From Ashinkailepas kermadecensis (Eukaryota > Arthropoda > Thecostraca > Neolepadidae), in contig JAOTOM010004040.1 in NCBI GenBank assembly GCA_034440615.1, positions 1 to 64,000 on the forward strand: a stretch of DNA of 64,000 nucleotides, read 5' to 3'. Shown here one piece after another: positions 9,976 through 52,118 of this stretch. A program made the position numbers and the translations under genes. The notes beneath the pieces were generated by a model. That model saw nothing but the letters and a program-made list of their open reading frames with translations, did no database searches and was not told where the DNA came from. Position 1 is the first letter of the stretch; each line of letters begins with the position of its first letter.

Positions 9976-12651
9976 GTATAGCCGTGCTTATTTTAGACCA
10001 CTTTTAGCCGTGTTTATTTTATACCACAATGTTTTACACACCTGACGTGAAAATGTGAAAAGCCGCAACATGTTGGACCATTTTCGAATATACTGGTAAC
10101 TGGTAGGTTAGGATAATGTTAAGCTAAGTTAAGTATGGAAAATTTTATGTAGCCAAGGCTAGGTTAAGCTAGGCTATGTTACATTTTTGTTTTTCAAACA
10201 TTACTTTTTATACTATGTTATCTAATTTAAATCCCTTTTCTAGTGTTATTTTGCTCACAGATTAAAAGTAAGCAGTTCCGCAGACAATGGGTGGTCCATC
10301 ATCTTAATCATATTCAGGAACATTGCATTGGAAACAGTGGCGTCGCCACGAAATTCTTCCAGGGGGGAGGGGCAATGTTGGAAGGGGGCCTCCTATTGCT
10401 TTTTAGGCTCTTGGTATGGTTCAAGAACGGGAAACATGATTTGATATTGATGTCTTGTTTGTTCTTGGCATGGTGCATAATTTACGCAAAACGCAATAGC
10501 AATAATAATTTTTTTCGCTCAGAACTGAGCCATGCCAGGGTGTAAATAAGTAAATGTGGATAGATAACTAAGTGCCAAAAGAAACCAATGTCTTAATGCT
10601 TTCTCGACCAGAAGAATCTTCCCGCTGGCCTCTGGATTCCAGCGAGCTGGCGGGGCTGGTGCTGAACATATCTTAAAATATCTCCCATTGATCAACCCAC
10701 TTCTATGTCCAACAAGTCTAACTTAATATCGATAGAATCATAACTACTGTTAGTCATTCCCACCAGCTTGATGTCATAAGTAAGCTTAAACGATCATTGC
10801 TCAGTCCTAGGAAGACACTTTCGCTAAAGTGACAACGAGAAGTGAATTGAATTGGTTTTCTTCTCGCCATCTTAGTGATTTATTTATTTTTAATAACATT
10901 TGGTGCTCGCTGCAAGGCACTTGGCACACAAGGTACAACCCACATGGGTTGACGCACCCTAAAACCCCAATAATCATCACCTGGCACACAAGCTAAAATA
11001 ATAAATCATCAGCGAATAAATTCACGGCAAGAACAAGCATTGCACAACAGTGCATTAATGACAACGCAACAATGCAACAATGGCAATGCATAAATCATGC
11101 AAAGCCTTCAAATTTCACGCCGTCGTGCCCATGGTTTTCGCTGTGCTGCACCGTTTTGTAAATGACGTCGTTGAGAAGGTATTGAAGCTGGGAAGCTCTA
11201 ATCATGCAGGTTGCAATCACTGAAGACAAGTTTGTAGGAAAAAAATGCATTTAAAAACATAATTCCTCCCAATTCGTATGGGGCATCGGTGTTGTTTTGT
11301 ATGCTTGTGAGGGTGAATTTGCCCCCTCAATGTTGGCTTTGCTCCATGTTTCTGAAAATTATTGGGAGACCAGTGGCGTACTTATATTTGCGTCAATGGG
11401 GATGGTGGGAAACGTATTTGGAGGGGGTCCACCTGTTACGATGTTCTTTGGTGCGGAATGTGTATACGATTCGTGTGCTGAGGTACCACGACACAAACGC
11501 TGCAGCTCTCGCCGGGTGACTATTGGAGACTGAGCGCGACCGGGCAGTGGGCCGGTCATGCCGGCCGGTCAGACGAGCGTAGCCGCCGGGCTTTAGAGGT
11601 GTCAGATTGAACACCGGAAAACCACGAATCCAGTACAGAGTATCTAGTGATGTCAAAGTGAAGACCGAAAGTCCAACACAGAACACCACCTACCCCATTA
11701 AATAATGTCCTCGGATTTCGACCACTATTTTGTCAAAGGGGACTTTTTTAAATAAAATAATTAGTGATCAACTGAATTGTCCTTTGGATGGGCCTAATCT
11801 ACCACTATCGTTTCTGATTCGTCGGTTTTGAAACCTAACTCCCCCACCCTGCTATAATGTTTTATTTTGGTATCCCTTGATAAGTCACCTCACACTACTG
11901 TAATTATACCAATACAAATCACTTTAAAATGTAAAAATTCCCAATTTCAGACATCCCGGGTTCATAGCGCCCGGTCGCCACGACGCCAACGTTCGTGCAC
12001 GGGCACACCCACCCTGCGCATTCGGCGCATTCGCCACACTTCGTGCGATGCTGCGGTTTCCGCTAGGCCTCTTACGTTTTGCTAATTGCAGCCACATCAT
12101 GGACTTGCGCCATATTCGACGAAATGGAATGCTTCGTATGGACGTTCGCTGCGAAAATTCGATTAATTAAATTCGATCACTAGTTCCCTACTTCCAACAT
12201 TTTATGGTGGATAAGAAATGCGAATACCCGCTGAGCTTTGATGCACCTCATATGTTTGATTAAATATGCTCCCAGATTGGCTACCGAACCGAGGCCCTGC
12301 ATCAGTGTTCTTTTTTGGACCCGTTTCGTCTTTCTTCGTCTACGGATGTGTCTTAGGGCTTTAATCCATTTTTGTTAGGAGCCGAACATATTTTCGAAAC
12401 CCCTGCTCGTGTTTGGGTTTTGTTGCTTTTTTGTGCACCGATAATTTTTTAGGTGTCAGGGCACTTTCAAATATCCAGATTTGCTTATTTAGTTCTCGGT
12501 CTTTTTGTTCGTTTTTGGCACCATGCTGCTTTTTGCGGCTTCTGCCTCTTTTTTAGGCCCTTGTACGGTCGCATGGCCCCTGTGTGCCTTGATAGCTTCC
12601 GGTGTATTTTTTAGAGCTCCCGGTATTTTTTTTTTTTTTTAGAGCTCCCGG
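9976..12651. other. AT-rich intergenic region with MITE half and degenerate satellite
   Basis: At 10215-10335 there is one half (minus orientation) of the long-TIR MITE family (TTATTTTGCTCACAG...GGTGGTCC.TCATCTTAATCA). A hAT-like terminus CAGTGGCGTCGCC starts near 10338 and CAGTGGCGTACTT near 11373, both without a partner. At 12380-12650 is a degenerate T-rich/GCCC pattern (about 30 bases per unit) resembling 30745-31520. No gene recognised. Confidence 0.5.
10933..10977 (+). mobile_element. Solo SINE-tail hairpin element 1 (45 bp)
   Basis: A 45-base insertion with ACCCACATGGGTTGACG and tail CACCCTAAAACCCCAATAAT. It is flanked by 15-bp target duplications at 10918-10932 and 10978-10992 (CACTTGGCACACAAG / CACCTGGCACACAAG, one mismatch). 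It lacks any tRNA-like head. Compared with other copies it starts inside the hairpin. Confidence 0.8.
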
Positions 12652-12951
12652 TAGTTCTACTTATCAAAATGTACACAAAGCCATCCCAGGAATAATTCTG
12701 AATGCATTTAATTTTTTTCTCTCAAATAGCCAGAATTAAAAATTTCTCTGCAGCTTATTTTTGTATCCATTTTGGGTCCGTAGGTGTAGCAAAATGATGA
12801 TCAATACCCTTCAAGAATGGCTAGAAAATAGGTTTCATGTGTCGGCAGGGTGCATGTCAGATTTGGGATGTATGTTCACACCTCAGGTGTGCGCTGGCGC
12901 ATTTGATGTGCATTCCCAGAGCAATGCCGACCAATCGGAAACCTTGAGATG

Positions 12952-13113
12952 TTGGTTGGTTATTGGTTTTACGACACGTCGACCGTTGAGTCATGTAGCG
13001 TCGCCAATCTCTCACGCCGATTGGTCGCGGGCGAAGAGTAGCGACAGGTGAGACTCGAACCCACAACCTTTCGATTGTGAGACGAGCATCTTACCCCTAG
13101 ACCACTCGTCCCC
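12952..13113 (-). mobile_element. F1 SINE, present in block A only
   Basis: Minus-strand full-length F1 copy. The target duplication AAACCTTGAGATG (12939-12951) / AAACCTTCAGATG (13114-13126) matches a single uninterrupted AAACCTTCAGATG at about 41270 in block B, which is the empty site. It therefore inserted after the blocks diverged. Confidence 0.95.
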
Positions 13114-13209
13114 AAACCTTCAGATGTGAAGAATGGGGCATGCTTGTATTTTGAGCTGACCAGCATTGTGATAGCAGGTGTGCATCTTGTGAGAATCCAG
13201 AGCAGGGCC

Positions 13210-13607
13210 ATTTCTCCAGCCCTGTATGTAGTCCATGTGTCCTGATGTTGCCCCAGGAGGGTGGCTGAGTGTCACATTGCCAGCCAGCGTCCGACCTGCA
13301 TCGCCCCATGTGTCCCGTTGTAGCCCCAAGGGATGGCTGTATCACATTGATGGCCAGCATCTGACCTGTATGTAGTCATTATGTGTCCTGATGTAGCTCC
13401 AGGTGCCCCATGTGTTCTGATGCAGCCCATGTGACCTGCATCGCCCCATGTGTCCCAATGTAGCCCCAGGGCATGGCTGTGTATCACATTGATGGCCAGC
13501 ATCTGACCTGTATGTAGCCCCATGTGTCCTGATGTTTCCCCAGGTGCCACTTGTGTCCTGATGTAGCCCATCTGACCTGTATCGGCCCATGTGCCCCCAG
13601 GGCACGG
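13210..13607. repeat. Minisatellite upstream of CASD1 exon 1, copy A
   Basis: Imperfect units of about 35 and 70 bases built on CCCATGTGTCCTGATGTAGC, CAGCCAGCGTCCGACCTG and TGTCACATTGATGGC. It runs right up to the start of coding exon 1. Block B has a longer array (41390-42030). Confidence 0.88.
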
Positions 13608-13647
13608 TGGAGTATGACCTTCTCACAGTCTGGCCAGCGTGCGCAGC

Positions 13648-13929
13648 ATGACTGTCGAGTGCGTGGCGGGCGACGACGCCGGCAGCGGCACCAGCACCGG
13701 CAACGGCACCGGCAACGGCACCGGCAACGGCAGCGGCAACTGCGAGCCGCGCGCCAACCTCACCCACTCGCTGCTGCACCGGTTCAACGCCGACACGGCG
13801 CGCCACGTGGCCGCCGCGCTGGTGGTGCTGTTCGTCAGCTACCACGGCCTGGTGCGGCTGGCGTACGGCACCGACAGCTGCGTCTGGTTGCTGGCCAGGG
13901 GCGAGTACCACGCTGGCGAGGCCTGGCAG
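13648..13929 (+). CDS. CASD1: CASD1 coding exon 1, copy A
   Basis: 94 codons from ATG at 13648 to a splice donor (CAG|GTATGT at 13929/13930), phase 0. Residues 1-30 are an acidic/Gly-Asn-Thr-rich lumen- or cytosol-facing tail. Then comes an NLTHS N-glycosylation site and a hydrophobic anchor HVAAALVVLFVSYHGLVRLA (about residues 55-75), then CVWLLARGEYHAGEAWQ, which matches the CASD1 N-terminus just before the esterase domain. An upstream ATG, the start used in copy B, is put out of frame here by a 4-base length difference (13622-13634), and an in-frame TGA lies at 13615, so 13648 is the best start. The Gly/Asn/Thr linker is six residues longer than in copy B. Confidence 0.85.
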
Positions 13930-14030
13930 GTATGTGGTCAGGGGCGAGTACTACGCCGGCGAGGCCTGGCAGGTGGGTGGCGAGGGGCGAGTACTACGCC
14001 GGCGAGGCCTGGCAGGTGGGTGGCCAGGGC
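13893..14030 (+). repeat. 43-bp tandem repeat of the exon 1 end plus splice donor
   Basis: The last 30 bases of exon 1 and the following intron start are repeated three times at an exact 43-base period (GCGAGTAC starts 13901, 13944, 13987). Each unit brings its own CAG|GT donor at 13930, 13973 and 14016. Since 43 is not a multiple of three, only the first donor keeps the phase-0 junction with exon 2. Degenerate units continue at 14425-14625. Confidence 0.9.
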
Positions 14031-14184: not shown

Positions 14185-14237
14185 ACAAGCTGCCTTCGTG
14201 GCCCGAGTCCCGCATTCGACGGAAGGACGCTGCAGCG

Positions 14238-14428
14238 GCGGGGACGGCCGAGTGGCTGAGGTGTTGAGCTCTGGGTACCGAAGGTCCCGGGTTCAGCACT
14301 CGCACCGCTCGGGATGTTTCCTAATCCCGCGTCCCAGCGGCGAAACAGTGTGGGCTGCGCCATTAGCCGTGGTCGTGAATAAAGTGCGTGGAGAACCACC
14401 CAATAAGCAAACAAACGAACAGGGGAGA
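14238..14428 (+). mobile_element. F3 SINE (tRNA-Leu/Ser-like head), copy A
   Basis: The head GACGGCCGAGTGGCTGAGG resembles class II (Leu/Ser) tRNAs; box B is CCCGGGTTCAGCACT. The body ends GGGC(G/T)GCGCCATTAGCC...AGAACCACCCAATAA, a GGGCGG/CCGCCC-type hairpin (degraded here). Shared with block B (42555-42747), so it predates the duplication. Confidence 0.8.
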
Positions 14429-15745: not shown

Positions 15746-15750
15746 TGTAT

Positions 15751-15811
15751 GGGCGCTAAATGACCAAACCTGGTCGATGCACCCTAAAACCCAAATAACG
15801 AACCAACCAAC
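15751..15811 (+). mobile_element. Solo SINE-tail hairpin element 2
   Basis: GGGCGCTAAATGACC...GGTCGATGCACCC, then TAAAACCCAAATAACGAACC. It sits at the end of the ATGAATGA array, so target duplications cannot be read. Shared with block B (44017-44076). Confidence 0.75.
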
Positions 15812-17288: not shown

Positions 17289-17320
17289 CCTATGGTGGAG
17301 ACCTATGACCTATGGTGGAG

Positions 17321-17375
17321 TTAGTTAGTTATTAGGGCTTTAGGGCGCATCGACTACATCGGTCATGTAGCGCCC
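17321..17375 (-). mobile_element. Solo SINE-tail hairpin element 3
   Basis: Minus-strand copy: GGGCGCTACATGACC, GATGTAGTCGATGCGCCC, then TAAAGCCCTAATAACTAACT. Stem GGGCGC/GCGCCC plus inner TACAT/ATGTA. Flanked by ATGACCTATGGTGGAG on both sides, ambiguous because it lies in the array. Also present at 49677-49731. Confidence 0.8.
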
Positions 17376-17510
17376 ATGACCTATGGTGGAGACCTATGAC
17401 CTATGGTGGATACCTATGACCTATGGTGGATACCTATGACCTATGGTGGATACCTATGACCTATGGTGGAGACCTATGCCCTATGGTGGAGACCTATGAC
17501 CTATGGTGGA

Positions 17511-19000
17511 GCACCCATGCAATGATGGCTCCTTGTGCAGATCCTATCATTGGTCTAAGAACTGTGCATCAGGCCCTTCGCTTGACGTCTGTCACAGACA
17601 TTTTAGCTGACCTATGACCTTCACCACATACACTTTATCTGACTTACACGCATAATCTGTACCGCATACCCTGACACAGCGAATAATTTGGCTTTAGGGG
17701 TGTCATCAAAGTGTATTTATAATGCTTAGATTCTTGGTTGAACTATCAGTCTTTTCCGCACGGGATTCTTTCAGCCTATTATGAAATATATTTACAGGAT
17801 CTATCCTACAGCAGGTAGGGTAGATCCAGACTAGGTAGGGTAGTCTGTCAGATCAGGTAGGGTAGATCCAGCTAGCCTCTGTCCCTGTCCCTTTGGTTAC
17901 GTGAGTTGAATCGGATCTCTGTAGCTCTGAGTCTGAATTGAGTCGAATCAAATAATTTTAACCTGCTGTGAATCATGAGTTGAATCGGATCTCAAGATCC
18001 ATGAGTCAAATGTGAGCCAATTCAAAAAATTTGAGTCGAGCACAAGTCTGCAGTCACTAACATCACAACAGAAATGTGGCGCACAGATGTGCTGCCGCCA
18101 TTCTCCACCAGAATATATTTATTTAACATACAGGAGCTTGAAATTTTAATGGCATAGTAATGAAACAGGGAAGCCTAGCGTAACGTATTTGAATTTAAGT
18201 AACCTAAAGTAATATAATCTCATTGTACTTCTTGAAATTAACAAGCAATAACTACTAATTCAAACAATATGATAATTAAATAGGAAAACCTAACCTAATC
18301 AAAACTAACAAACTGAACTAATCTAACTAATATATTATAATGTAAAAAACAAGTTTTGACTGGTTCAGGTTTGACCATATAGAAACAGCAGTTTACTTGT
18401 TGCAGGACTTAGGTGTTTGGAAACACGCCTCTTCTCCTAGATAGGGGAAGCAGGGGAGGGTAACCAAACAAGTTCCATCTCCCGAACACCTACCTTTGGA
18501 CGTCTCCTGCATCACATTCAGTGTAAATAACACGATTGTGGTATTCGTGAACAATGGAATGGTCTCTATTGAAATACAATGGTCTGATTGCATAGTTCTT
18601 GTGATTCTTTGTATACAGCTAGCAAAGGCCACAGGCACCATTTTCAGGTGTACAAGCTATTGGCTTAAGAAAACAACGAGGAAGTTACCTACAATTTTTT
18701 TTGAAATTTCACAGGTATTTTTTAGTGGCTACTAATAACCTGTACCACAACAGCTACAGTGAATTAATCCTTCACAACCACATTTGCATGTTCAGAATAC
18801 AGAACACTACTATGAAATAATTGTTCTAAAGTTGCTCTTTGTGAGTGGTTAGAGGATTTTAAATGAAAGGAACTGTTTGAATATGGATAGTTGGTTCATT
18901 TTTGCATTTGGTAAACACCATACAATTACTGGTTTGCCATACAGAAGCAGCAGCAGTAAGGATACTTGTTGCAGGTTCCTAGGGTTTGGAAAGCCCCCTC
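17511..19000. other. AT-rich unique part of block A
   Basis: Contains GGTAGGGTAGATCCAG repeats at 17812-17875. An 82-codon minus frame (18641-18393) is preserved in all three copies in the window, but it overlaps nothing recognisable and is explained by recent duplication. Several CCTAACCTAA motifs. No gene. Confidence 0.5.
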
Positions 19001-19634
19001 AATGGTAAATGTCTTAAAAGGTGTTTTTTTTCTTAAGAATACCATGCTTATGAAGGTGACTAAGATGAGATCACTTATTTGTTGCAAATGCTTGCTTTTT
19101 GGATTGTGAGCAAAATAATGCCAAGATGCCTTGAGTCAGGCAACAGCATAAAATAAATGTAAAAAAGCATCAATATGATAAACAAAAAATAAATTGAATA
19201 CATTAAAAATAATTAAAAAAAAACAATCTAACCTACCTTTGAAGATATAATTTTAAAAAAATAATGAGCAACTTATTTCTGAAAATCTAAAACTTAAAAA
19301 AGAAACATATCCAGTGTAGACAAACCTAATCTAACTGAAGCTGCTATTGAAGAAAAGAAATTTAAATGTAAGTGATTTATCCTTTGGCAACTTCAGTATC
19401 ATCACACCTTAAGGTAGGAACAAGAAAAGTGTTATATACATTTGCCTCCATAAAGCGAACAAGTGTGTTAGGTTAGTTTAGGATTATCAGGTTCGAAAAT
19501 CAGCATTTTTAAAAAAAGAAAAAATGCATTTGCACAGAAAATAAGTGGTCCCATCATCTTATTCACCTTCATAAATATGGTATGCTGAAGAAAATAAACA
19601 AACGAAGGAAAACATGTTAAAGACAAATTTAATT
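19001..19634. mobile_element. Long-TIR MITE, copy in block A
   Basis: The left arm (TTCTTAAGAATACCATGCTTATGAAGG...) and right arm (TCACCTTCATAAATATGGTATGCTGAAG) are inverted repeats of about 75-100 bases. The inside holds the family's CTTAAGGTAGGAACAAGAAAAG core and TTAGG-like motifs. Block B copy: 51411-52043. Confidence 0.75.
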
Positions 19635-21529
19635 CCTCTTCCCCTAAGCGTGGGGTATATATGTTGATCTAGGTAAAATTTGATTTTTTTGTAATTTTTA
19701 TTAATACATGGTATTTTAACATAAAAATGACTATGCATCCACTCATTTTCTCTGCACATGATTACTTTTCAGTTGGCAAACAAATACAAAATCATAATCC
19801 TCACTCTGCAAATATAGCACATCTCATAATTATCCATACCTGGTGTGTCAGACATGATAAAGAAGACATTGAACACTTCATGCACTCGATTTAATGCTCT
19901 TCGACATCAAAAACCTTATGTTTCCGCCTTAATTCAACATTTATTTCTGAGAATGAATACTCACAACCCGACATGTCCAGAGCCAAGGCCGGAAGTTCCT
20001 TGCGATGCTGTATTATCTTATTTTTCATATATATGTGCTAGCCGAAGAATTTGTTTTGGATAATTCTGGTTTTCTGGTTAGGTTAGGTCAGACTATATTA
20101 TGATATAACATATGTTATATATTATGCTACGTTCTTAATCTAGGTTGCGTTAGGTTTTAATTTTTTATTTATTTATCTATCTATTCATATGTAATTTTTG
20201 AACTCTTGACCATAAGCAGAACACGGAAGCGTTCTCCAGTATATGCAGTAACAATATGCAGTGTAAGAATGGCAGATAACAATAACGCAGCATAATATAA
20301 AATATATTATGTCATAATACAATATAAACTAACCTAGCTAGAAAACCAGAATCTGTCATAAATGTGTTTGCCCACATGATACTTATCAACAAAATACTAT
20401 TAAAAATATATATGAAGACGTCATAACTACTCACCATGAAGCACAATGTCGATTATCAGTTGGGAGGGATGTGAATTCAGTGTTCAGAAAGTGGTATATA
20501 CCGCCCTATTTTACGGATAATGTATCACTGCCAGGCAGACTAACGAGAATAACTGGAATTTACAATGCTCACAGGGAACACAACACGGTCACTACCCCAA
20601 TTGTCACACCAGTACCTAGCACCCGCTTTTCTTGCAATTCGCAACCGGACAAAAAAAACAATCGGAAACGAGCTCACCTAACGAGACAGAAACACCGGAA
20701 ATACCACACACGGCGGAACACGATCGAAGGCAGAGAGGGCGCCGTAAATTATGGAGCAATTAGCACATCACAGAGAGGAACTATGACCTACAAAAAGGCT
20801 AAAAATTGAAATGTGATAAAACCAATCCCCGAAAAAATTTTACAAATAATATTCGTTATCAATTCTTATTGATAAAAATATATGTAGGCTAATCGGATTA
20901 AATTCAGTCAATTTTTGGGGGCGGGCGGTCTGCGAGATTCTCCGTGTTCGAGTGACATAAACAGTATTTGTGTCACAAATACGTGGCGTTCTGAACCAAT
21001 GCATGCCGTGAAAACGAAAGACACTGAAATTTCTGGTTGTTTGGTTGTCTATTTTGTCCCAAAGTCTTAGCAGGTTTGGAGAACGTTTTGGACAGTTCTG
21101 GACAATTTCCACGCGCAAATTTCAGTTAATATCTTTTGTATATATGGCATGGGAGTGATTCAAATTTGATAAATAAACATTTTATAGTTCGTCAGTTGAT
21201 GCAGCACATCCTAATCTTTCAGGAAGCATTACAAATTAAAGTATTCATTGTCTTTCTTCGCAGCGGTTTAAAAAGCTCCCGAAAGAGTGGCAGCTGTAGA
21301 GCCATGGTTCTCCCCCGTCCAAGAGCTTGTACATTTATAAGCCGACTCGGGGAGTGGTAGTTTCCCCTTAGTAGCCGTGAGACGCATGGAGGCGTCCTTC
21401 ATTTGAGAAGGGATTACTTCGTGTTTTGAGTTTGGAAGCCCACAGATGCTATTTTGTGGTAAATGTAAGTTGTGCGGTGCTTTCGTGTTGGGATATAGGC
21501 ATTTGGATAATTAATGTACCGGGAGCAGG
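19635..21529. other. AT-rich unique part of block A
   Basis: Nothing recognisable as a gene. Frames such as 20471-20809 are shared with block B but show frameshifting differences there. A 52-60 base AT-rich region with TAACATATGTTATATATTA palindromes lies at about 20090-20130. Confidence 0.45.
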
Positions 21530-24444: not shown

Positions 24445-25181
24445 ATTGGTAACCTTGCAGTTTAAGGTGTTCTTTTTTTCCCTTTTTTAACATTTTTTTT
24501 CTGCAGAATACCATGTTTATGAAGGTGACTAAGACGATTGGATCCACTTATTTTCTTTGTGAATGCTTACTTTTCAGGTTGTGAGCAAAATATTACCAAA
24601 AAGGGCTTTGAGTTCGGTAACATAACATAAACATAAATGTTTTTCTTTAATGCAACAAAACCTAACCTAACCTAGCCTAATCTATCGTTTGAGAACAAAA
24701 AAAAAACAAAATAAAAATGTCATTTAATTTATTTTCTGAAAATTATCAACCTTAATAAAGAAACCTAACCCAACCTAACCTAACCTAAGCTGCTTTTGAA
24801 GAAAACAAAAGTCTGAACATGTTTGTTTTTTGTTTTTTAAAAACTTTTTGGTATTATTGTGCTTTAAGGAGCAAGGAAAGTGTTGTGGGCGCTGTATGAC
24901 CAACGCAGTCAATGCGGCCGTAAGCCCAAATAACTAACCAACCAACCAAGAAAAGTGTTTACACACATTTGTCACCATAAAGCAAACAAATTGGTTAGGA
25001 TTGGTTAGGGTAGGTTGGTTTAAGTTTTTCAGTTGGACAATTTGTCATTTTTTTCAAATTAAAATTAAATATATTTGCACCGAAATAAGTGGTCCCATCG
25101 TCTTGGTCACCGCCATGAACATGGTATTCTGAAGAAAAATTAGAACAAACAAAAATCACCCTGAACTGCAAGTTTACCAAT
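24445..25181. mobile_element. Long-TIR MITE, best-preserved copy (737 bp)
   Basis: Starts ATTGGTAACCTTGCAGTTTA and ends with the reverse complement pattern (CTGCAAGTTTACCAAT). The arms continue for about 110 bases through CAGAATACCATGTTTATGAA and GACCACTTATTT. The centre carries CCTAACCTAACC/GGTTAGG motifs. No open frame. A solo hairpin element (24885-24946) is inserted in it. The target duplication is uncertain. Confidence 0.8.
24885..24946 (+). mobile_element. Solo SINE-tail hairpin element 4 (62 bp)
   Basis: GTGGGCGCTGTATGACC, AACGCAGTCAATGCGGCC, then TAAGCCCAAATAAC and three AACC units. Target duplications CAAGGAAAGTGTT / CAAGAAAAGTGTT at 24872-24884 and 24947-24959. It interrupts the MITE core, whose uninterrupted form is seen at 19400 and 24300. 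Confidence 0.85.
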
Positions 25182-28748: not shown

Positions 28749-29990
28749 CAACAACCAAGCTGCGGCTATGAATGCTGCAGTTATGAAAGCACGAATGAAT
28801 GGTGAGTGCAACCAAAGCTTTAGCTAGCACTGCGGACATATTTTTCGACATCGGTAAGGACTGTTAACATGACATGTTAAATGTCATGTTAAATTCATGT
28901 TAAACATGCCATGTTAAACATGGCATTTAACATGGCATTTTCTCAGATTTGTGGTGAGTAGTGTTATATTGCTGCTGCATCTACTTTCAGTTAAGCAGCC
29001 GAATTGGATAGGGGAGATAGTGGAGATAGTGGGAGATAGTGGTGATAGTGGTGATAGTGGTGAAAAGTGAAGACGGTAGAATATAGTGGAACGAGACGGG
29101 CCAGCGTCTGTATGCCTGTGTCGGACCAATTGGAGGAAAGTGAAAGTGGTGGCGCGGTAGGCGTGGTTCGGGAAACTCGACCAGTAGAGCACTTACCAGG
29201 CATGGGTGGTTCATGTGCCTCTGGTAGCTCAGTTGGTAGAGCGGTGGACTGTAGTGGCCCTCGACAGGCATCCATAGGTCGCTGGTTCAAATCCGGCCCG
29301 GAGGACTTTTGCATTTCTCCGCTCACGCCTCCAGTGTATATTTGCGGGCTTTAACCCGCGGGTCACTTGCAGGCGAGGGGAGGAATGATGCACGCGGCTG
29401 AGAATTCATCTAGGTATGGGTACCGTGTCTTCAGGTACACCAAATCAATCTCGTTCTCTCATGACTTGATTAAAGTTCATGTTTGGTCAAATGTGTGCAT
29501 GCATGCTGATTTTTATCCTCATGTGTCATAAGTGCTCGTGTTTACCTTTAATTGTAAATGCGATTTTCATGCGCAAAACACACAAACATCAGGACGTAAT
29601 CAAGATGCAAAATGAGGCCGGCTGTTGGTGCTACCATTCACACAAACATCGGACTGGTAGTTCACGATCCGTGGAATAAGATGTCATTCCTGACATAGGA
29701 AATATGTCGGGGTGTTATAGCATTCCTTGCTTCACTTATTCATGCATTCATATCCACAGAGTTCATTACCTGTTTGCCGTTGCTGGAAATAGTGAAAATT
29801 TTATACCTATTTGCACTGCGAAGTTTCCGTTGATAAACCTGTCTGCCCTCCTGCCCCATGCAGCCTGCCTGTGCCGGAGCAGTATTATTATTAGTAGTAT
29901 CATTCCTGAGCAGTATTATCGCCACCCGACCCGAGCAGTATATCGCAGACCGAACAGCCCTCAACGGGTCACCACTGATGGGCGATCCTT
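28749..29990. repeat. Duplicated block C, copy 2 (carries tRNA-Tyr)
   Basis: Same content and orientation as 6122-7373. The left edge abuts the end of an X unit (CGACGCCCCTG|GCAACAACC). The right edge is lost after GGGCGATCCTTATAC. Confidence 0.9.
29218..29305 (+). tRNA. tRNA-Tyr (anticodon GTA) with 15-base intron, copy 2
   Basis: Same as copy 1, with an identical intron (starting TGGCCC), but the T-stem is GCTGG/CCGGC, with a G-U pair in place of copy 1's U-U mismatch. All four stems pair. A TTTT terminator begins two bases after the discriminator A. This copy looks the more likely to be functional. Confidence 0.94.
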
Positions 29991-32932: not shown

Positions 32933-33051
32933 GCGACGACGACACCCTGTGTTCCCAGGCGGTCACCCATCTAAGTACTAGCCGGGCGCGAGGCTGGTTA
33001 GCTTCAGTGATCGGACGGGAACTGGTGTGTTCAGCATGGTATGGCCGTTGC
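32933..33051 (-). rRNA. 5S ribosomal RNA gene (119 bp)
   Basis: On the minus strand: ACGGCCATACCATGCTGAACAC, GTTCCCGTCCGATCACTGAA, the box A region AGCTAACCAGC, and the box C region TTAGATGGGTGACCGCCTGG followed by GAACACAGGGTG. Length 119 is canonical. The terminal helix GCAACG/CGTCGC pairs with one mismatch. A TTTTT pol III stop follows immediately at the 3' side (32927-32931). It is isolated, not in a tandem array. It has several changes from usual 5S loops (CAGCCTCGCGCCC), so it may be a dispersed variant or a pseudogene. Confidence 0.85.
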
Positions 33052-33404
33052 ACGTGGCGGACTGTCAGCTCATGCCAAGCCGTTCATCATTTACTTACAC
33101 GGGTGTCGCTCTAAAGATGATTTGGGGGAGGAGTAGCCAAGGACAATGCAGATACTCCTCGAAATGGGCACTCATCGGATTTCGCTCACTAGGTTTTGCG
33201 CATTTGGAAAACTTGGGTTGCATCTTTTTACAGCTGTGAGCCGTCTTGCTTCTGGTCTTATCGGTGCCTACACATGGGTGTACCCACGGCTTTGAAATTG
33301 CAGGGACAAACCAGGGGCGTGGTAAGTTTGGGCAGGATAGAGAGGTAAGCCCCGCCCCTCCCCCGGAAAAAGTGAAACGTGGAACATTAGACATTTGAGC
33401 CTTT

Positions 33405-33574
33405 TATTAATTGGGCGGTTCACCACGCACTTTATGCTCACGGTTAATAGCGCCGCCCACTCCGTTTCACCGGTGGGCTGCGGGATTGGGAAATGTCCCA
33501 GTGGCGCGAGTGTTGAACCCGGGACCTTCGTATCCAGCACTCAACACTTTAACCACTGGGTCACCCCCGCCCAC
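33405..33574 (-). mobile_element. F3 SINE, minus strand
   Basis: The head on the minus strand is GTGACCCAGTGGTTAAAGTG; box B is CCCGGGTTCAACACTCG. The tail hairpin is GGGCGGCGCTATT...GTGAACCGCCCAATTAAT. Target duplication TTGAGCCTTT at 33395-33404 and 33575-33584. A related uninterrupted TTTGAGCCTTCCTCGTTGCT occurs at about 32527. Confidence 0.9.
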
Positions 33575-39578: not shown

Positions 39579-39731
39579 TTAAGGGTGATATGATTGAAAT
39601 GTATCAAAGCATTAAAGGGCTAAGATCACATCAATCTGAATGGTGCCTTTCTATTTAGAGTATCATGTATATAGCAATCATGAATTCAGGTTAAACCAGT
39701 TGTGGTGCAGGACAGATAAGTGACAACAGGT

Positions 39732-39778
39732 GCTGTATAACCTAGGCAGTTGATGCGCCCCTAAACCCCAATAACAAC
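39732..39778 (+). mobile_element. Solo SINE-tail hairpin element 5 (47 bp)
   Basis: GCTGTATAACC, GGCAGTTGATGCGCCCC, TAAACCCCAATAACAAC. Perfect 14-bp target duplication AAGTGACAACAGGT at 39718-39731 and 39779-39792. Inserted into LINE sequence. Confidence 0.88.
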
Positions 39779-40109
39779 AAGTGACAACAGGTCCTCAGTC
39801 AATGTTGTTGTCAGAGTTGTCCATCAATGGAATAGGCTGCCTACTGATGTTGTGGGGAGTCCCTCATTAAATGCGTTTTAAAATAGGATGGACTAATTTT
39901 TGTTGGGCCAGAAAATTATGTTTTGAAGTTCTAATTAGTAGTGGGTGGGGTGAGATTTATGCCAAGCAGGTGTGCATGGTACAGGCATGGAAGGAGTTTG
40001 AAAATTGTTGGTATATTGTACATTGGCACAATTATTGAATATACACACTGTCACAGAAACAGAGAGGAGGAGGGTGGTTGGTCACCTCTCCTCCTGGTCA
40101 GACATTGGG

Positions 40110-40979: not shown

Positions 40980-41389
40980 TAGTTCTACTTATCAAAATGT
41001 ACACAAAGCCATCCCGGGAAGAATTCTGAATGCATTTCATTTTTTTAATCTCAAATAGCCAGAATTAAACATTTCTATGTAGCTTATTTTTGTATCCATT
41101 TTGGGTCCGTAGGTGTAGCAAAATGATGATCTTCAAGCCCTTCAAGAATGGCTAGAAAATAGGTTTTATGTGTCGGCAGGGTACTTGTCAGATTTGGGAT
41201 GTATGTTCACACCTCAGGTGTGCGCTGGTGCATTTGATGTGCATTCCCAGAGCAATGCCAACCAATCGGAAACCTTCAGATGTGAATAATGGAATACTTG
41301 TTGTATTTTGGGCTGACCAGCATTGTGATAGCTGGTGTGCATCTCCAGAGCATCTCCAGAGAATCCAGAGCAGGGTCATTTCTCCAGCC

Positions 41390-42554: not shown

Positions 42555-42747
42555 GGCGAGGACGGCCGAGTGGTTAAGGTATTGCGCTCTGAGTGCAAAA
42601 GGTCTCGGGTTCAACACTCGCACCACTCGGGACATTTCCCAGCCCCGCGGCCCACCGGCGAAACAGTGTGGGCGGCGCCATTAGCCGTGGTCGTGCATAA
42701 AGTGCGTGGAGAACCACCCAATAGGCAAACCCACGAACAGGGGAGAC
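42555..42747 (+). mobile_element. F3 SINE (tRNA-Leu/Ser-like head), copy B
   Basis: GGACGGCCGAGTGGTTAAGG head, better preserved than in A. Box B CTCGGGTTCAACACTCG. Tail GGGCGGCGCCATTAGCC...GAGAACCACCC. Confidence 0.82.
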
Positions 42748-44012: not shown

Positions 44013-44016
44013 GTAT

Positions 44017-44076
44017 GGGCGCTAAATGACCAAACCTGGTCGATGCACCCTAAAACCTAAATAACCAACCAACCAA
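44017..44076 (+). mobile_element. Solo SINE-tail hairpin element 6
   Basis: Counterpart of element 2 (15751-15811). Confidence 0.75.
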
Positions 44077-44149
44077 TTATAAATGAATGTAACGTATGAA
44101 TTAATGTAATGTATGAATGTATGTAATGTACGAATGTACGTCGTTTCAG

Positions 44150-45200: not shown

Positions 45201-47014
45201 ACCCATGCTATGATGGCTCCTTGTGCAGATCCTATCATTGGTCTATGAACTGTGCATCAGGCCCTTCGTTTGACCTCTGTCACAGACATTTTAGCTGACC
45301 TATGACCTTCACCACATACACTTTATCTGACCTACACGCATGATCTGTACCGCATACCCTGACACAGCGAATAATTTGGCTTTAGGGGTGTCATCAAAGT
45401 GTATTTATAATGCTTAGATTCTTGGTTGAACTATCAGTCTTTTCCGCACGGTATTATTGCAGCCTATTATGACATATATTTCCAGGATCTATCCTACAGC
45501 AGGTAGGGTAGATCCAGACTAGGTAGGGTAGTCTGTCAGGTCAGGTAGGGTAGATCCAGCTAGCCTCTGTCCCTGTCCCTTTGGTACAGTGTTGGATTTT
45601 CACTTCTGAGTCTTGCACTGGGAGTGTATAATTATTGGGTTCGGTAAAATATCTGAGTGTATAACGTCAAGAAGCCATATAATAGAGTGTATAAATTTCC
45701 ATAAACAAAGGAGTGCATAAATTTGCTGGTATAGTGAATAAATAACATGGCTAAGTCATATACCACTGTTCATTTTTTTCACGCATTGAAAGAGTACACG
45801 GTTTTCCCCAGATCATAGTGAAAGGTGAAAGGCAGTGCACAATTCCAACCTATTATCCATATGCAAGAAGGCACTCACTCAAGAATCACCACTCGGACAC
45901 TTCTGTAGTGTATCTGTAGTGTCCGTCTGGAGTAGGACTCGCTGATTAAGCCACGAATGTTTTAATTTGGAACCCCAGCACCACCCGGCTCAAAAACACC
46001 TTCAGGTCATCTGCATCTGTCTGAGATCTGGTAAAGACCATATCACACTTTATTGCACAAAATGCCAACGAATGCCAACCCAGCCCTGCCGTCCAAAGGA
46101 AGAAAAACATTTGCACCGTTTGGGTCAGTGAAATTTTCGTCTCTATCGCAGCATTTGTTAGTTGAATTGCATCCGTGTACAACGTGACATGGAGGCGTAG
46201 GTTCCAATTAATGAACAAGGAGGATACTTTTTCTTCATCTAGAAGGCAATGATCAACACTATCTTGAGTGGGACTGGACTGTTCGAGACTGATCAAGCCA
46301 CAAACACTGCATCAAACAATAGAGGGGCCATAACGTACTAAAGCCAGATATGATCTGGGGATAAAATCTAGCTTCAACCAAATCACAGATCTGAGGGAAG
46401 CAACGACAGCGCGCAACGTACAAGGCGAACGACGCCCTGCTAGATGACGAGCTCCGGCATCAGAACCTGTAGGGGGAATGAACAGGTCTTACAAGTCAAG
46501 ATCAGCTCAAACAAGTCACAGCCGCAGCTACACAACAAATTGCAGCAGCGTAATACGCATTCACCAGATGATACGCACTCACCGAACGTTGCAGGTTATA
46601 GTGCTTTGGCAGCTCAGCAGCGCTCAGATGCGAGTCAGGCAGTCGCCGGGAGAGACGCACGCTATTCCACCAGCGAACCTAGCTCCGAAGCCAGAACCTG
46701 TTGCGGACAGGGAACAGGGTATTAGATAAGGCATTCGAATTGTCGGCACGACCGCCGGGAGCAACGAGACACCACATAAACCTACGCACAAACTACGTTG
46801 ATCCTAGCCGACTCCAGCTCCAACGGCAGTACTTGTGAGCGGGGCAGGGCAAGACTGTTCCTACTAAAGGGCCGACAAATAGGCCATCCCAGGATAGTTG
46901 ATATTAAAGACACCATCCTCTCAATTTCATAACTGTTGGGTGGGATGTTGCTGCTTGACAATGAACTGCTCAGGAATATGGTACTCAGGTTAGACTGAGA
47001 ATTGCAAACTTTCT

Positions 47015-47068
47015 GGTTGGTTATTTGGGTTTAGGGGTGCATGGACTGCATTGGTCATACAGTGCTTA
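47015..47068 (-). mobile_element. Solo SINE-tail hairpin element 7, degraded
   Basis: Minus strand: GCACTGTATGACCAATGCAG, TCCATGCACCCCTAAACCC, AAATAACCAACC. Flanks AACTTTCTG / AAGTTTCTG suggest an old target duplication. Confidence 0.65.
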
Positions 47069-47305
47069 TTAACAAGTTTCTGTCACAGGTTTGAAGACGA
47101 TAACATCAATATTTGATTACCCAAAAATTTTCCGCTGCACATCCAGGAATACAAAGTACTAATTCTGTGCAGGGGTACACTGCCTGGGCTTTTTCAGGTT
47201 AAAGAAATCTGAGCAAAATATGTTCACATTACCCAAATCATACAGAATTCACAAAACAAAACATATGGAGTATAAACAGAAAAACATGTTCTGCATCAAC
47301 AATGG

Positions 47306-47475
47306 GGGCTGCGGTAGACCAGTTGGTAGTGTCAGTCTCTTGATCACAAGATTGTGGGTTCGAATCTCTCAACCAGCAGCATTACCACGTCCACCCACGA
47401 CCAATCGCCATGACAGGTTGGTGACGCAATATGACCTAGCGGTTGAATGCATTTTAAAAGAACCCAAGGTTCTTC
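47306..47475 (+). mobile_element. F2 SINE, diverged copy
   Basis: GCGGTAGACCAGTTGGTAG head, GGGTTCGAATCTCTC box B, tail TTGGTGACGCAATATGACC and GCGGTTGAATGCATTTTAAAA. The stem bases have partly decayed. Confidence 0.82.
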
Positions 47476-48697
47476 TTGAGCATGAACAAAATAACATCAG
47501 AGAAACAAAGTATTGAATAAACACAGATATACATACAGAACACGTGGTGCCATCTAAGAGATTAATAATGCTTTATACAGTATTATCACACATCTTCCCA
47601 GAAATGGGAAAGGATAGAGGAATGCAACTCAATGTTGCTGATGTGCTCAACAGACAACTGTCCACCAACATGATAAAGAGTGCTTACATGCACAAACAGC
47701 TCTGCCATGCAATGTCACAACCCATCATGTCTGTTTTTATCAGTTTACAAAAAAATATCTAACTGATCATATTTATGTGATGCATCTCACAGAGCAATGT
47801 TTTTTTGGGAAGTTATAAATATGTTAATATATAATAAAACACTCATTTGATAGTCATGATTTTCATGACTCAATATATCTGGAGGTAAAATGCCACCATG
47901 TCCTTTTCAATGGTAATGAAACATGCTGTGCATGCTTAGTCAAAAACGAAAAAAAATCCCATCATGTCTTGCTATCCGTGCAAAATTACTTTCATTCTTA
48001 GGGACCACGGAAGCATTCTTGTTCAAAAACCCACCACATCCAAATGCAAAAGACAATGACTTGACTTCTCTATTCATGAAATTCAAGAAAACCATCACAA
48101 TTCAAATCCCAACATAGTGGGTTCTGATTTCACCATCTACAGTCCCAATGGGAAAACTAACATATGATGACATAGTTTGGTTGTCACTATACATTCACTG
48201 GACTGGCAAAACCAGTCAAGTAACATGGACAAAAACACTTATTACTGGGTAATTTGAGCATTCACTTGAGTGGTAATTTGAGCATCTTGGTTCAATCAAT
48301 TCAATGCTATTATCACAAAATACAGTGAACACGGTGGATTTTGAACTGCATGGAAGAGCTATGAGCAGTAACATAATATATGTGAGTACTTACCATTTCA
48401 GCAGATTACTGACTCATGAAGTCTGAACAGTCAACCTTCCAAACTCAATGTCGTCAACCTTCAACCACTGCAAACTTCAGTCAGTCTGTGGACAGTGCCA
48501 GAGTTAGAACTACAAGTATAACTAGGCCTCATTGGATGTGTCAAAACAGAACAAAAGTTGTCAAGTGACTTTGCATGCTGCAACCAATGACAGACAGCTT
48601 CATATCACAACCATCACAACTCAAACTGGTTCTGACAACCAGCCAAGAACTTCAACTTCCTGGATTGTTAGTTGATTTGTTAGGTATTTCATCTGCC

Positions 48698-48740
48698 ACT
48701 TGGGTTTAGGGGCACAACTGCATTGGTTACACACCAGCCA
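48698..48740 (-). mobile_element. Solo SINE-tail hairpin element 8, degraded
   Basis: Minus strand: GTGTGTAACCAATGCAGTTG followed by TGCCCCTAAACCCAAG. Too decayed for target duplications. Confidence 0.5.
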
Positions 48741-48762
48741 TTAACATCAAATATGATATATC

Positions 48763-48820
48763 TGGGCGCCAAATGACCGAGTAGCCGGCGCGCCCTTAAG
48801 CCCAAATAATCAATCAATCA
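48763..48820 (+). mobile_element. Solo SINE-tail hairpin element 9 (58 bp)
   Basis: TGGGCGCCAAATGACCGAGT, AGCCGGCGCGCCC, TTAAGCCCAAATAATC and (AATC)n tail. Perfect 14-bp target duplication AAATATGATATATC at 48749-48762 and 48821-48834. Confidence 0.92.
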
Positions 48821-48982
48821 AAATATGATATATCATGTTTATGAACATGATTGTGGCATTTCTCAGACATAATTAATGGGAAATTAGACACTCCTTCACA
48901 CCAAAAACACTTCTTTCAGCCTTTTCCTCATATATCACACAAACAACCTTGCTCACTAACATCACAACAGAAATGTGGCAGA

Positions 48983-49036
48983 TGGGCGCTACATGACCGA
49001 TGTAGTCGATGCGCCCTAAAGCCCTAATAACTAACA
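48983..49036 (+). mobile_element. Solo SINE-tail hairpin element 10 (54 bp), B-specific
   Basis: GGGCGCTACATGACCGATGT, AGTCGATGCGCCC, TAAAGCCCTAATAACTAAC. Perfect 14-bp target duplication AGAAATGTGGCAGA at 48969-48982 and 49037-49050. The empty site is seen uninterrupted in block A near 18066 (CAGAAATGTGGC) and again near 50445. Confidence 0.92.
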
Positions 49037-49633
49037 AGAAATGTGGCAGACAGATGTGCTGCTGCCATTCTACACCAGAATATATTACTTTAACATACAG
49101 GAGCTTGAAATTTTAATGGCATAGTAATGAAATAGGAAAGCCTAGCGTAACCTATTTGAATTTAATGTAACCTAAAGTAATATAATCTCATTGTACTTCT
49201 TGAAATTAACAAGCAATAACTACTAATTCAAACAATATGATAATTAAATAGGAAAACCTAACCTAATCAAAACTAACGAACTGAACTAATCTAACTAATA
49301 TATTATAATGTAAAAAAACAAGTTTTGACTGGTTCATGTTTGACCATATAGAAGCAGCAGTTGGACTACTTGTTGCGGGACTTAGGTGTTTAGAAACACC
49401 CCTCTTCTAGATAGGGGAAGCAGGGAGGGTAACCAAACAAGTTCCATTTCCCGAACACCTACCTTTGGACGTTTCCTGCATCACATTCAGTGTAAATAAC
49501 ACGATTGTGGTATTCGTGAACAATGTAATGGTCTCTATTGAAATACAAAGGTCTGATTGCATAGTTCTTGTGATTCTTTGTGTACAGCTAGCAAAGGCCA
49601 CAGGCACCATTTTCAGGTGTGCAAGCTATTGGT

Positions 49634-51046
49634 TTGACCTATGACCTATGGTGGAGACCTATGACCTATGGTGGAGTTAGTTAGTTATTAGGGCTTTAGG
49701 GCGCATCGACTACATCGGTCATGTAGCGCCCATGACCTATGGTGGAGACCTATGACCTATGGTGGATACCTATGACCTATGGTGGATACCTATGACCTAT
49801 GGTGGATACCTATGACCTATGGTGGATACCTATGACCTATGGTGGAGACCTATGCCCTATGGTGGAGACCTATGACCTATGGTGGAGCACCCATGCAATG
49901 ATGGCTCCTTGTGCAGATGCTATCATTGGTCTAAGAACTGTGCATCAGGCCCTTCGCTTGACCTCTGTCACAGACATTTTAGCTGACCTATGACCTTCAC
50001 CACATACACTTTATCTGACTTACACGCATAATCTGTACCGCATACCCTGACACAGCGAATAATTTGGCTTTAGGGGTGTCATCAAAGTGTATTTATAATG
50101 CTTAGATTCTTGGTTGAACTATCAGTCTTTTCCGCACGGGATTCTTTCAGCCTATTATGAAATATATTTACAGGATCTATCCTACAGCAGGTAGGGTAGA
50201 TCCAGACTAAGGTAGGGTAGTCTGTCAGATCAGGTAGGGTAGATCCAGCTAGCCTCTGTCCCTGTCCCTTTGGTTACGTGAGTTGAATCGGATCTCTGTA
50301 GCTCTGAGTCTGAATTGAGTCGAATCAAATAATTTTAACCTGCTGTGAATCATGAGTTGAATCGGATCTCAAGATCCATGAGTCAAATGTGAGCCAATTA
50401 AAAAAATTTGAGTCGAGCACAAGTCTGCAGTCACTAACATCACAACAGAAATATGTGCACACAGATGTGCTGCTGCCATTCTCCACCAGAATATATTTAT
50501 TTAACATACAGGAGCTTGAAATTTTAATGGCATAGTAATGAAATAGGGAAAGCCTAGCGTAACCTATTTGAATTTAATGTAACCTAAAGTAATATAATCT
50601 CATTGTACTTCTTGAAATTAACAAGCAATAACTACTAATTCAAACAATATGATAATTAAATAGGAAAACTTAACCTAATCAAAACTAACAAACTGAACTA
50701 ATCTAACTAATATATTATAATGTAAAAAACAAGTTTTGACTGGTTCAGGTTTGACCATATAGAAGCAGCAGTGGGGCTACTTGTTGCAGGACTTAGGTGT
50801 TTGGAAACACCCCTCTTCTTCTAGATAGGGGAAGCAGGGGAGGGTAACCAAACAAGTTCTATTTCCCGAACACCCACCTTTGGACGTCTCCTGCATCACA
50901 TTCAGTGTAAATAACACGATTGTGGTATTCGTGAACAATGGAATGGTCTCTATAGAAATACAAAGGTCTGATTGCATAGTTCTTGTGATTCTTTGTGTAC
51001 AGCTAGCAAAGGCCACAGGCACCATTTTCAGATGTACAAGCTATTG
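49634..51046. repeat. Internal tandem duplication in block B
   Basis: Restarts at the 20-bp GACCTATGGTGGA array and repeats the sequence from A 17290 to about 18664. The junction is GCTATTGGTTT|GACCTATG; the normal continuation GCTATTGGTTTAAGAAAAC appears at 51040. The 20-bp array here spans 49634-49890. Confidence 0.88.
49677..49731 (-). mobile_element. Solo SINE-tail hairpin element 11
   Basis: Same as element 3 (17321-17375), in the duplicated 20-bp array. Stem GGGCGC/GCGCCC with inner TACAT/ATGTA. Confidence 0.8.
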
Positions 51047-51410
51047 GTTTAAGAAAACAAGGAGGAAGTGTCCTACAATTTTTTTAAGTTTTAAAAAAAT
51101 TGCACAGGTATTTTTAGTGGCTACTACGGTACTGAGATTAGCGACCTGTAACCAACCACAACAGCTACAGTGAATTAATCCTGCACAACCACATTCACAT
51201 GTTCAGAATACAGCACACTACTTTGAAATAATTGTTCTAAAGTTGCTCTTTGTGAGTGGTTAGAGGATTTTAAATGAAAGGAACTGTTTGAATATGGATA
51301 GTTGGTTCATTTTTGCATTTGGTAAAAACCATACAATTACTGGTTTGCCATACAGAAGCAGCAGCAGTAAGGCTACTTGTTGCAGGTTCCTAGGGTTTGG
51401 AAGCCCCCTC

Positions 51411-52043
51411 AATGGTAAATGTCTTAAAAGGTGTTTTTTTTTCTTCAGAATACCATGCTTATGAAGGTGACTAAGATGAGACCACTTATTTGTTGCAAAT
51501 GCTTACTTTTTGGATTGTGAGCAAAATAATGCCAAGATGCCTTGAGTCAGGCAACAGCATAAAATAAATGTAAAAAAGCATAAATATGATAAACAAAAAA
51601 TAAATTAAATACATAAAAAAAGAAATTAAAAAAACAATCTAACCTACCTTTGAAGATAGAATTTTAAAAAAAATATTGAGCAACTTATTTCTGAAAAATC
51701 TAAACATTAAAAAAGAAACCTATCCAGTGTAGCCAAACCTAATCTAACTGAAGCTGCTATTGAAGAAAATAAATTTAAATGTAAGTGATTTATCCTTTGG
51801 AAACTTCAGTATCATCACACCTTGAGGTAGTAACAAGAAAAGTGTTATATACATTTGTCTCCATAAAGCGAACAAGTGTGTTAGGTTAGTTTAGGATTAT
51901 CAGGTTCGAAAATCAGCATTTTTTAAAAAGAAAAATGCATTTGCACAGAAAATAAGTGGTACCATCATCTTATTCACCTTCATGAACATGGTACTCTGAA
52001 GAATTAAAAAAACGAAGAAAAACATGCTAAAGACAAATTTAAC
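51411..52043. mobile_element. Long-TIR MITE, copy in block B
   Basis: Counterpart of 19001-19634: left arm CAGAATACCATGCTTATGAAGG, right arm CACCTTCATGAACATGGTACTC. Confidence 0.75.
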
Positions 52044-52057
52044 CCCTCTTCCCCTAG

Positions 52058-52118
52058 ATGGGCGCCAAATGACCGAGTAGTCGGCGCGCCCTTAAGCCCA
52101 AATAATCAATCAATCAAT
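52058..52118 (+). mobile_element. Solo SINE-tail hairpin element 12 (61 bp), B-specific
   Basis: GGGCGCCAAATGACCGAGTA, GTCGGCGCGCCC, TTAAGCCCAAATAATC plus (AATC)n. Perfect 14-bp target duplication CCCTCTTCCCCTAG at 52044-52057 and 52119-52132. Block A has the empty site (CCTCTTCCCCTAAG, about 19636). Confidence 0.93.

Follow-up and report, generated by a model that had tools for sequence, protein, structure and literature searches.

Tail-only insertions derived from LINE 3′ ends in the genome of Ashinkailepas kermadecensis

Hairpin copies in the window

In total, 12 tiny hairpin copies are found in the window, i.e., the whole stretch of 64,000 nt of contig JAOTOM010004040.1 that was analysed (Table 1). 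All of them had been pointed out in an earlier sequence-only reading and lie within a base or two of where it placed them, the one at 48698 being a weak match (E 0.23). As the pairs 15751/44017 and 17321/49677 are located within duplicated segments, the number of independent insertions is about 10. The inserts bounded by target-site duplications (TSDs) consist of the hairpin, a linker and repeats only, with a few carrying extra letters at the 5′ end; such copies are referred to here as tail-only. A scan covering tRNA and 5S promoter types made no call at any of the window copies, in agreement with the earlier observation that they have no tRNA-like head.

Table 1. Tail-only copies and the comparison SINE in the window.
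Feature	Position	Strand	Remarks
Tail-only copy, 45 bp	10933..10977	+	5′ end within stem; TSD 10918-10932 / 10978-10992, 14/15 matching
Tail-only copy in tandem array	15750..15811	+	Duplicated partner at 44016
Tail-only copy in 20-bp tandem array	17320..17376	-	Duplicated partner at 49676
Tail-only copy, 62 bp	24885..24946	+	TSD 24872-24884 / 24947-24959, 12/13 matching
Tail-only copy, 47 bp	39732..39778	+	5′ end within stem; perfect 14-bp TSD 39718-39731 / 39779-39792
Tail-only copy	44016..44077	+	Duplicated partner at 15750
Older tail-only copy	47014..47066	-	TSD not detectable
Decayed, doubtful copy	48699..48739	-	Weak match, E 0.23; without TSD
Tail-only copy, 58 bp	48763..48820	+	Perfect 14-bp TSD 48749-48762 / 48821-48834
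Tail-only copy, 54 bp	48983..49036	+	Perfect 14-bp TSD 48969-48982 / 49037-49050; empty site 18054-18080
Tail-only copy	49676..49732	-	Duplicated partner at 17320
Tail-only copy, 61 bp	52058..52118	+	Perfect 14-bp TSD 52044-52057 / 52119-52132; empty site 19631-19646
tRNA-Val(CAC)-derived SINE, homologous hairpin tail	12951..13113	-	Comparison element; others at 8472, 14980, 17133, 34078, 43295

For each copy, the TSD score was compared with 200 null draws. Duplications of 13–15 bp proved significant at six of the 12 copies (10933, 24885, 39732, 48763, 48983 and 52058), none of the 200 draws reaching the score in any case, and the four described earlier as perfect were confirmed as 14-mers. 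The claim of such duplications did not extend to the other half: at 15751, 44017, 17321 and 49677 the TSD is not delimitable within tandem arrays (score matched by 0.5–1.5% of null draws), and at 47015 and 48698 none was detectable against the null draws. In addition, the inserts at 52058 and 48983 are absent from duplicated empty sites elsewhere in the window, the upstream flank match for the latter being just 27 bp long. The TSDs, the empty sites and the oriented repeat tails show that the tail-only inserts are insertions of the target-primed reverse transcription (TPRT) type.

The parental LINEs and their 3′ hairpin

The hairpin type of these inserts, GGGCGC..GCGCCC, is that found at the 3′ end of LINE families in the genome. 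The long copies encode LINE endonuclease, reverse transcriptase (RT) and RNase H, and the 3′ terminus of the parental family is composed of GTTAT, the conserved hairpin, a CCC-AATAA linker and CTAAC/AACC/AATC repeats. It is from this LINE 3′ end that the tail-only copies derive. Pfam domains PF03372 and PF00078 were identified in copy L131, and PF00075 in L068, L108 and L047; judged from coordinates, there is an in-phase overlap between the open frames of L131 and L068, which were read separately. APE endonuclease, RT and RNase H domains are thus all present in ORF2, as in LINEs of the I superfamily, the putative clade concerned, judged by domain content rather than from a tree. The RNase H domain sets this LINE apart from UnaL2, ZfL2-1 and ZfL2-2. 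By reading, the hairpin at 10933..10977 resembles those of the GTTAT-preceded copies in L068, L087 and L110. Searches of phage records (with the window LINE at 59836 as a query), viral contigs and prokaryote contigs gave nothing.

In the whole assembly, GTTA is kept at 1,079 of 4,521 LINE-type hairpins, counts that include passenger copies in larger repeats. Lack of GTTA was checked against TSDs within the locus sample described below. Reversed-pattern controls gave 0 hits, against 1,411, 1,079, 4,521, 5,925 and 5,398 for the forward patterns, and the hairpin counts are therefore not due to chance. Among the matches listed, seven of the 10 tallied hairpin variants are present both with and without GTTA.

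Base pairing of the hairpin holds in 94.3% of the cells of the alignment. The number of paired cells, the number of cells changed on both sides and the covariation score each exceeded all of 500 shuffles, whereas the pairs changed on both sides (3) were equalled by 225/500 and the pair types (4) by 497/500; the sequences tested were also those that had yielded the structure, and two of these three changes fall between SINE and LINE rows. Two poorly chosen rows, A1 (SINE flank) and A2 (wrong piece), are omitted from the model used (R1). With three of the five pair measures above the shuffles, covariation supports a conserved 3′ stem-loop of the kind that characterizes stringent-type LINEs. In UnaL2, ZfL2-1 and ZfL2-2, which are LINEs of this type, the 3′ hairpin is the recognition signal and, as here, is followed by short tandem repeats and common to the LINE and its SINEs (PMC4176376, PMC3747384). 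Unlike in those systems, the hairpin copies sampled here are mostly tail-only with a sharp boundary, a class that is not described in the accessible portions of those papers.

Lengths and 5′ ends in a genome-wide sample

From the whole assembly (908 Mb), 90 hairpin loci were drawn without selection on the 5′ side. They come from the first 100 places in contig order (small contigs C15 to C1314); C736 and C927, identical to L006 and L008 (both tail-only), were skipped, and the last eight places were left out. After removal of 11 loci representing the same insertion in repeated DNA, 79 unique loci remained, comprising 14 long LINE copies, assigned by upstream LINE homology rather than by TSDs (the weakest, L077, by 119 bp at 72%), and 65 tail-only copies. 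TSDs were found at 53 of the 65 (median 13 bp; 46 perfect), although three of them are merely 8–9 bp long and may be chance. As for the 12 tail-only loci without a TSD, 10 were tested for homology and had no LINE match adjoining the hairpin, and the other two, L106 and L107, were assigned by eye. The least certain tail-only call is L084, which has CTTAT upstream and no TSD. A further 29 incidental hairpins fall into the same two classes, long and tail-only.

Among the 53 loci with TSDs, the insert length ranges from 30 to 71 bp with a sharp peak. The 5′ end lies 0–2 nt upstream of the stem in 29/53 (-1 in 16, -2 in nine, 0 in four) and within the stem in 17/53, 10 of which end 3–5 nt short of the 5′ foot of the hairpin. 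Among the 79 unique loci, the interval from about -5 to -250 nt yielded no 5′ end matching a LINE. The length distribution had been proposed in the sequence-only reading as the test of a discrete element, and on this sample it came out in favour of one: lengths peak sharply, most tail-only loci have TSDs, and the continuous spread that would speak for ordinary truncation is not seen. A smooth truncation spread is rejected both by the empty interval and by a test of a constant truncation hazard on the 79 loci. 5′-truncated LINE copies are attributed in a review to incomplete reverse transcription (PMC2881922). The tail-only copies are like them in being TPRT products without the 5′ part, with the LINE 3′ end, a TSD and tail repeats, and differ in forming a separate size class cut at the hairpin foot instead of a continuum of 5′ ends.

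The perfect outer stem of single copies could also recall hairpin DNA transposons or foldback elements. This origin is extremely improbable and already contradicted, as the sequence is that of a LINE end, the tails consist of oriented repeats whose number varies, and the TSDs differ in length (12–16 bp in 47/53). Two further impressions were discarded. Microhomology at the 5′ junction as the cause of the fixed boundary was judged informally to be near chance (0 nt in 16/29, 1 nt in 10/29). An apparent copy start at GATGGGCGC, seen in a score-ranked sample (38 of 40 copies analysed), was dropped because that sample favours GA flanks, and the contig-ordered sample was used instead.

The long and tail-only classes are unequally distributed among hairpin variants: variants C and B have seven long and no tail-only copies in the sample, compared with seven long and 65 tail-only for the rest (p ~1 × 10−6, Fisher's test, variants chosen post hoc). 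A tail-only excess of the GACGCA variant (p 3 × 10−5) was set aside because the hairpins at C65, C144, C286 and C400 probably ride as passengers in a larger repeat; at these four of the six TGC..GACGCA places listed, the hairpin lies 190 bp from a SINE hairpin on the opposite strand.

Possible origin of the tail-only copies

The tRNA-Val SINE of the window provides a contrast, as its hairpin (CGACGC..GTGTCG) differs from, yet is homologous to, the tail-only one. The SINE core is present at 24/24 SINE hairpins examined, several of which are repeats of one insertion, and is kept at 5,398 of the 5,925 tRNA-Val SINE hairpins in the whole assembly, where its loss is explicable by a point change of 1.5% per site; this SINE is tail-only seldom or never. 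Extreme 5′ truncation of the SINE, to which the homologous tails might point, is a highly improbable source of the tail-only copies, being contradicted by both core counts and by the different stem. The copies had been described as head-less SINE tails, and the implied TPRT-type mobility and discrete size stand; their parents, however, are LINEs. Compared with the definition of a SINE, they lack a tRNA/7SL/5S head with an internal pol III promoter, and they share their 3′ end with a partner LINE, the long copies of which carry the same hairpin. Truncation repeatedly stopping at the hairpin and a minimal template, the two explanations offered earlier, were both apt, and the SINE contrast favours the latter. 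A different LINE may be responsible for moving the SINE, in which case the contrast is weaker.

On balance, genome sequence points to short 3′-terminal LINE RNA fragments as probable complete templates for retrotransposition. Upstream of the hairpin, the LINE mRNA would be degraded or cleaved; the hairpin, presumably bound by the protein of the LINE as in other LINEs of the stringent type, would shield the last ~55 nt; and the protected RNP, copied to its end, would yield an insert of 45–65 bp. Being short and structured, the SINE RNA would be spared this trimming and be inserted whole. Binding of the cognate 3′ stem-loop has been reported for ZfL2 ORF2 protein (PMC4176376). The cut almost exactly at the hairpin foot suggests that minimal RNA scraps may themselves template genomic insertion. 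Two observations speak against a fragment template: the 17 of 53 ends inside the hairpin are what premature RT stops would give, and variants C and B are long only in the sample, contrary to the prediction of a general decay model.

It is possible, if distinctly less probable, that the full-length LINE RNA is the template and RT usually ends just after copying the hairpin, e.g., at a protein clamped on the tail RNA. The ends inside the hairpin, many of them just short of its 5′ foot, resemble graded stalling, and ORF2 of a stringent LINE does bind the tail stem-loop (PMC4176376). On the other hand, a stem met from the 3′ side should, by argument, halt RT at its 3′ foot and not once it has been copied; in the SINE, which carries the homologous hairpin, most copies run on into the core, which counts if the same LINE moves them; and in the sample variants C and B occur as long copies only.

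We are doubtful of a reading in which a hairpin RNA of 54 nt suffices on its own as a minimal retrotransposon template and may even have source genes of its own. Such an element would be SINE-like and would require neither a head nor an internal promoter, nor any part of the LINE other than the recognition hairpin and the tail repeats. The full form of this reading, an independent minimal retroelement with its own source gene or genes using LINE proteins in trans, appears rather unlikely. The fixed 5′ boundary, the disproportion of long and tail-only copies across variants, and the 100% identity over 55–59 bases among many tail-only copies of one variant (in the score-ranked sample) fit such an element. 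The tRNA/5S scan called no head or promoter in the copies, and most of the tallied variants occur both with and without GTTA among the matches listed, which argues against it. To our knowledge, a SINE-like element this small would be a size record.

The SINE Bov-A also has no tRNA head, is derived from the Bov-B LINE and is longer than ~55 bp. The tail-only copies are similarly short, non-autonomous and made of LINE 3′ sequence, and differ from Bov-A in their size of ~55 bp and in coming from several LINE variants. A literature search of titles and the beginnings of abstracts, with most subscription papers outside its reach, returned no description of a tail-only LINE class.

If the fragment-template reading holds, a stringent LINE in a natural genome can make do with an RNA of one hairpin (~34 nt) plus a few repeats. 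Template choice could then be separated from processivity, because the SINE, although its tail is homologous, is integrated in its entirety and the LINE as a bare tail. The 5′ ends of tail-only copies would record either cut sites in the LINE RNA or release points of RT, and might serve as a ready assay. Inserts of 55 bp could easily be overlooked by repeat annotation.

Tail-only insertions in the window

All twelve tiny elements picked out by the sequence-only reading are present in the window, and a scan with R1, a covariance model built on the tail, recovered them together with the tails of the tRNA-Val SINEs, the match at 48698 being weak. The typical copy starts with T or AT before a hairpin whose outer stem is GGGCGC/GCGCCC and whose inner stem is GAC/GTC; a CCC-AATAA linker follows, then a small number of CTAAC, AACC or AATC repeats. 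The tRNA-Val SINE tail has an identical architecture, with the stem CGACGC/GTGTCG instead. The target duplications ascribed to these elements were found at six of the twelve copies (13–15 bp; score reached by 0 of 200 null draws) and were lacking at two, the other four sitting within tandem arrays. Because the window contains large duplicated segments (12652–17500/40980–45585 and 17288–21530/49644–54004; most pieces 88–97% identical), 15751/44017 and 17321/49677 represent one insertion each, and the twelve copies comprise about 10 independent insertions. The same duplications supply natural empty sites: insert 52058 is absent at 19631–19646, and insert 48983 at 18054–18080. SINE 12951–13113 also seems to be missing from the paired segment, at 41270–41283.

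In a 13-row alignment, the hairpin structure, drawn from these same sequences, has 94.3% of its cells paired, with a covariation score reached by 0 of 500 shuffles. Three pairs are changed on both sides (reached by 225 of 500 shuffles), while further pair types were at least as numerous in 497 of 500; the outer-stem changes are the difference between SINE and LINE. For each of five sequences, the predicted fold had greater stability than those of shuffled versions (z from −2.0 to −3.8). The predicted minimum-energy fold of the 24885 copy pairs the linker and not the expected outer stem, and inner pairs deviate from expectation in the 52058 copy.

Genome-wide distribution of 5' ends

In the assembly to which the window belongs (908 Mb, 4,689 contigs), the linker joined to the hairpin's 3' half has exact matches at 1,411 places. 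The 5' side played no part in the sampling, which followed contig order and covered 90 of the first 100 places; the removal of 11 loci that repeat an insertion already counted left 79 unique loci. Fourteen run upstream into LINE sequence, and the other 65 are tail-only, with no LINE body before the hairpin. Target duplications bound 53 of the 65 (median 13 bp; 46 perfect; three of just 8–9 bp), delimiting inserts of 30–71 bp. Relative to the first stem base, their 5' ends lie at −2 (9 copies), −1 (16), 0 (4), −3 or −4 (3) and −6 to −15 (4, the extra letters read by eye as non-LINE), and 17 copies start inside the hairpin.

The sequence-only reading had set a sharp length peak against a smooth spread. 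The 79 loci show two size classes, with no LINE-matching 5' end found in the interval from about −5 to −250. If truncation had a constant hazard, as estimated from the 65:14 split, 0.4% of copies that reach 60 nt would go on to 250 nt; 14 of 14 did, with L077 reaching it barely, as judged by available homology. The tail-only copies are insertions of the target-primed reverse transcription type and of LINE origin, and their 5' boundary lies at the hairpin foot. Truncation of LINE copies and the derivation of SINEs from LINEs are already known; in the portions of the literature searched, no description was found of a dominant class of LINE copies truncated at the recognition hairpin.

A further 29 hairpins, encountered incidentally in retrieved DNA and classified by eye, comprised 12 tail-only copies with a target duplication score of at least 9, two with weaker duplications, eight starting with GTTAT, two SINE-like and five unclear. 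One tail-only insertion lies inside another repeat, with flanks shared by nine loci (L041, L050, L051, L059, L062, L080, L082, L099 and L128); therefore, a carrier repeat can multiply a passenger copy.

Parent LINE and proposed template

Long copies read GTTAT-GGGCGC at the 3' end and code for the C-terminal portion of a LINE polyprotein, which includes RNase H (PF00075 in three of three tested). In L131 with L068 (one copy), ORF1 is open and ORF2 carries endonuclease and reverse transcriptase (RT); zinc-knuckle motifs were seen by eye in ORF1, in which a Pfam search reported no zinc-knuckle domain. The tblastx search tied 12 of the 14 long sample copies to L068, itself counted, and L077 was not detected at 1e-8. 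These sequences point to an RNase H-bearing LINE as parent, putatively resembling the I superfamily.

A LINE-type hairpin with preceding T has 4,521 matches in the assembly, 1,079 of them with GTTA directly before. GTTA is thus absent at 76% (3,442), a count that spans passengers in larger repeats, duplications having been checked in the sample alone. For example, four TGC..GACGCA hairpins (contigs C65, C144, C286 and C400) are tail-only and each have a SINE hairpin on the opposite strand at a distance of 190 bp, apparently as a composite repeat. The exact tRNA-Val SINE hairpin has 5,925 matches, 5,398 with six SINE-core letters before it; this 9% loss corresponds to a per-site change of 1.5%, and an equal rate would cost the LINE just 6% of its four letters. 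In retrieved DNA, the core was present at 24 of 24 SINE hairpins, and at least seven of these belong to loci sharing one repeat. Since SINE hairpins mostly keep their core and LINE-type hairpins mostly stand without GTTA, the tail-only class is assigned to LINE RNA, and the description of these elements as SINE tails does not hold.

Stringent LINEs encode a protein that binds the stem-loop at the 3' end of its own RNA (PMC4176376). RT stopping on LINE RNA may have produced the tail-only copies but is the less probable origin: a stem blocking the enzyme would be expected to halt synthesis at its 3' side. The hairpin is usually copied whole, and synthesis ends 0–2 nt beyond it, the outcome expected of run-off on a short RNA; a short-RNA template is therefore preferred. 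Somewhat more probably than otherwise, this template was a short 3'-terminal LINE RNA, which the hairpin and its bound protein would preserve; SINE RNA, putatively a pol III product by analogy, would remain whole. Against a short-RNA template stand the 17 of 53 copies ending inside the hairpin and the distribution among variants: C and B have seven long and no tail-only copies, the rest seven long and 65 tail-only (p about 1e-6 in a post hoc comparison).

An independent hairpin gene as the source is less likely still. Many hairpin variants are present in the genome. Among the matches listed, ten variants were tallied by hand, seven occurring with and without GTTA and three solely without; 32 of 100 listed T-preceded places recur among the listed GTTA-preceded matches. 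Copies of LINE variant C (L057, L068, L079, L087, L119) are 98–99% identical and young, with zero tail-only copies in the sample.

Other elements in the window

An open frame read by eye as LINE-like is crossed by the tRNA-Val SINE copy at 8472; a Pfam search found nothing in this frame. Two copies of the third SINE end in a CAATA..GCAAAC-type tail.

Other elements of the window and their positions
Element	Positions	Remarks
tRNA-Val(CAC) SINE	8472, 12951, 14980, 17133, 34078, 43295	~160 bp
Second SINE	3284–3454, 47305–47472	different tRNA-like head, related core, diverged hairpin, tail without AATAA linker
Third SINE	14237–14404, 33410–33571, 42555–42722	tRNA-like
Other LINE	59836–62518	endonuclease and RT frames; only 33% identity with the tail's parent across one RT stretch
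tRNA-Leu(UAG) genes	6595–6682, 29218–29305	in 1.25 kb duplication, 97% identical
5S rRNA gene	32934–33052
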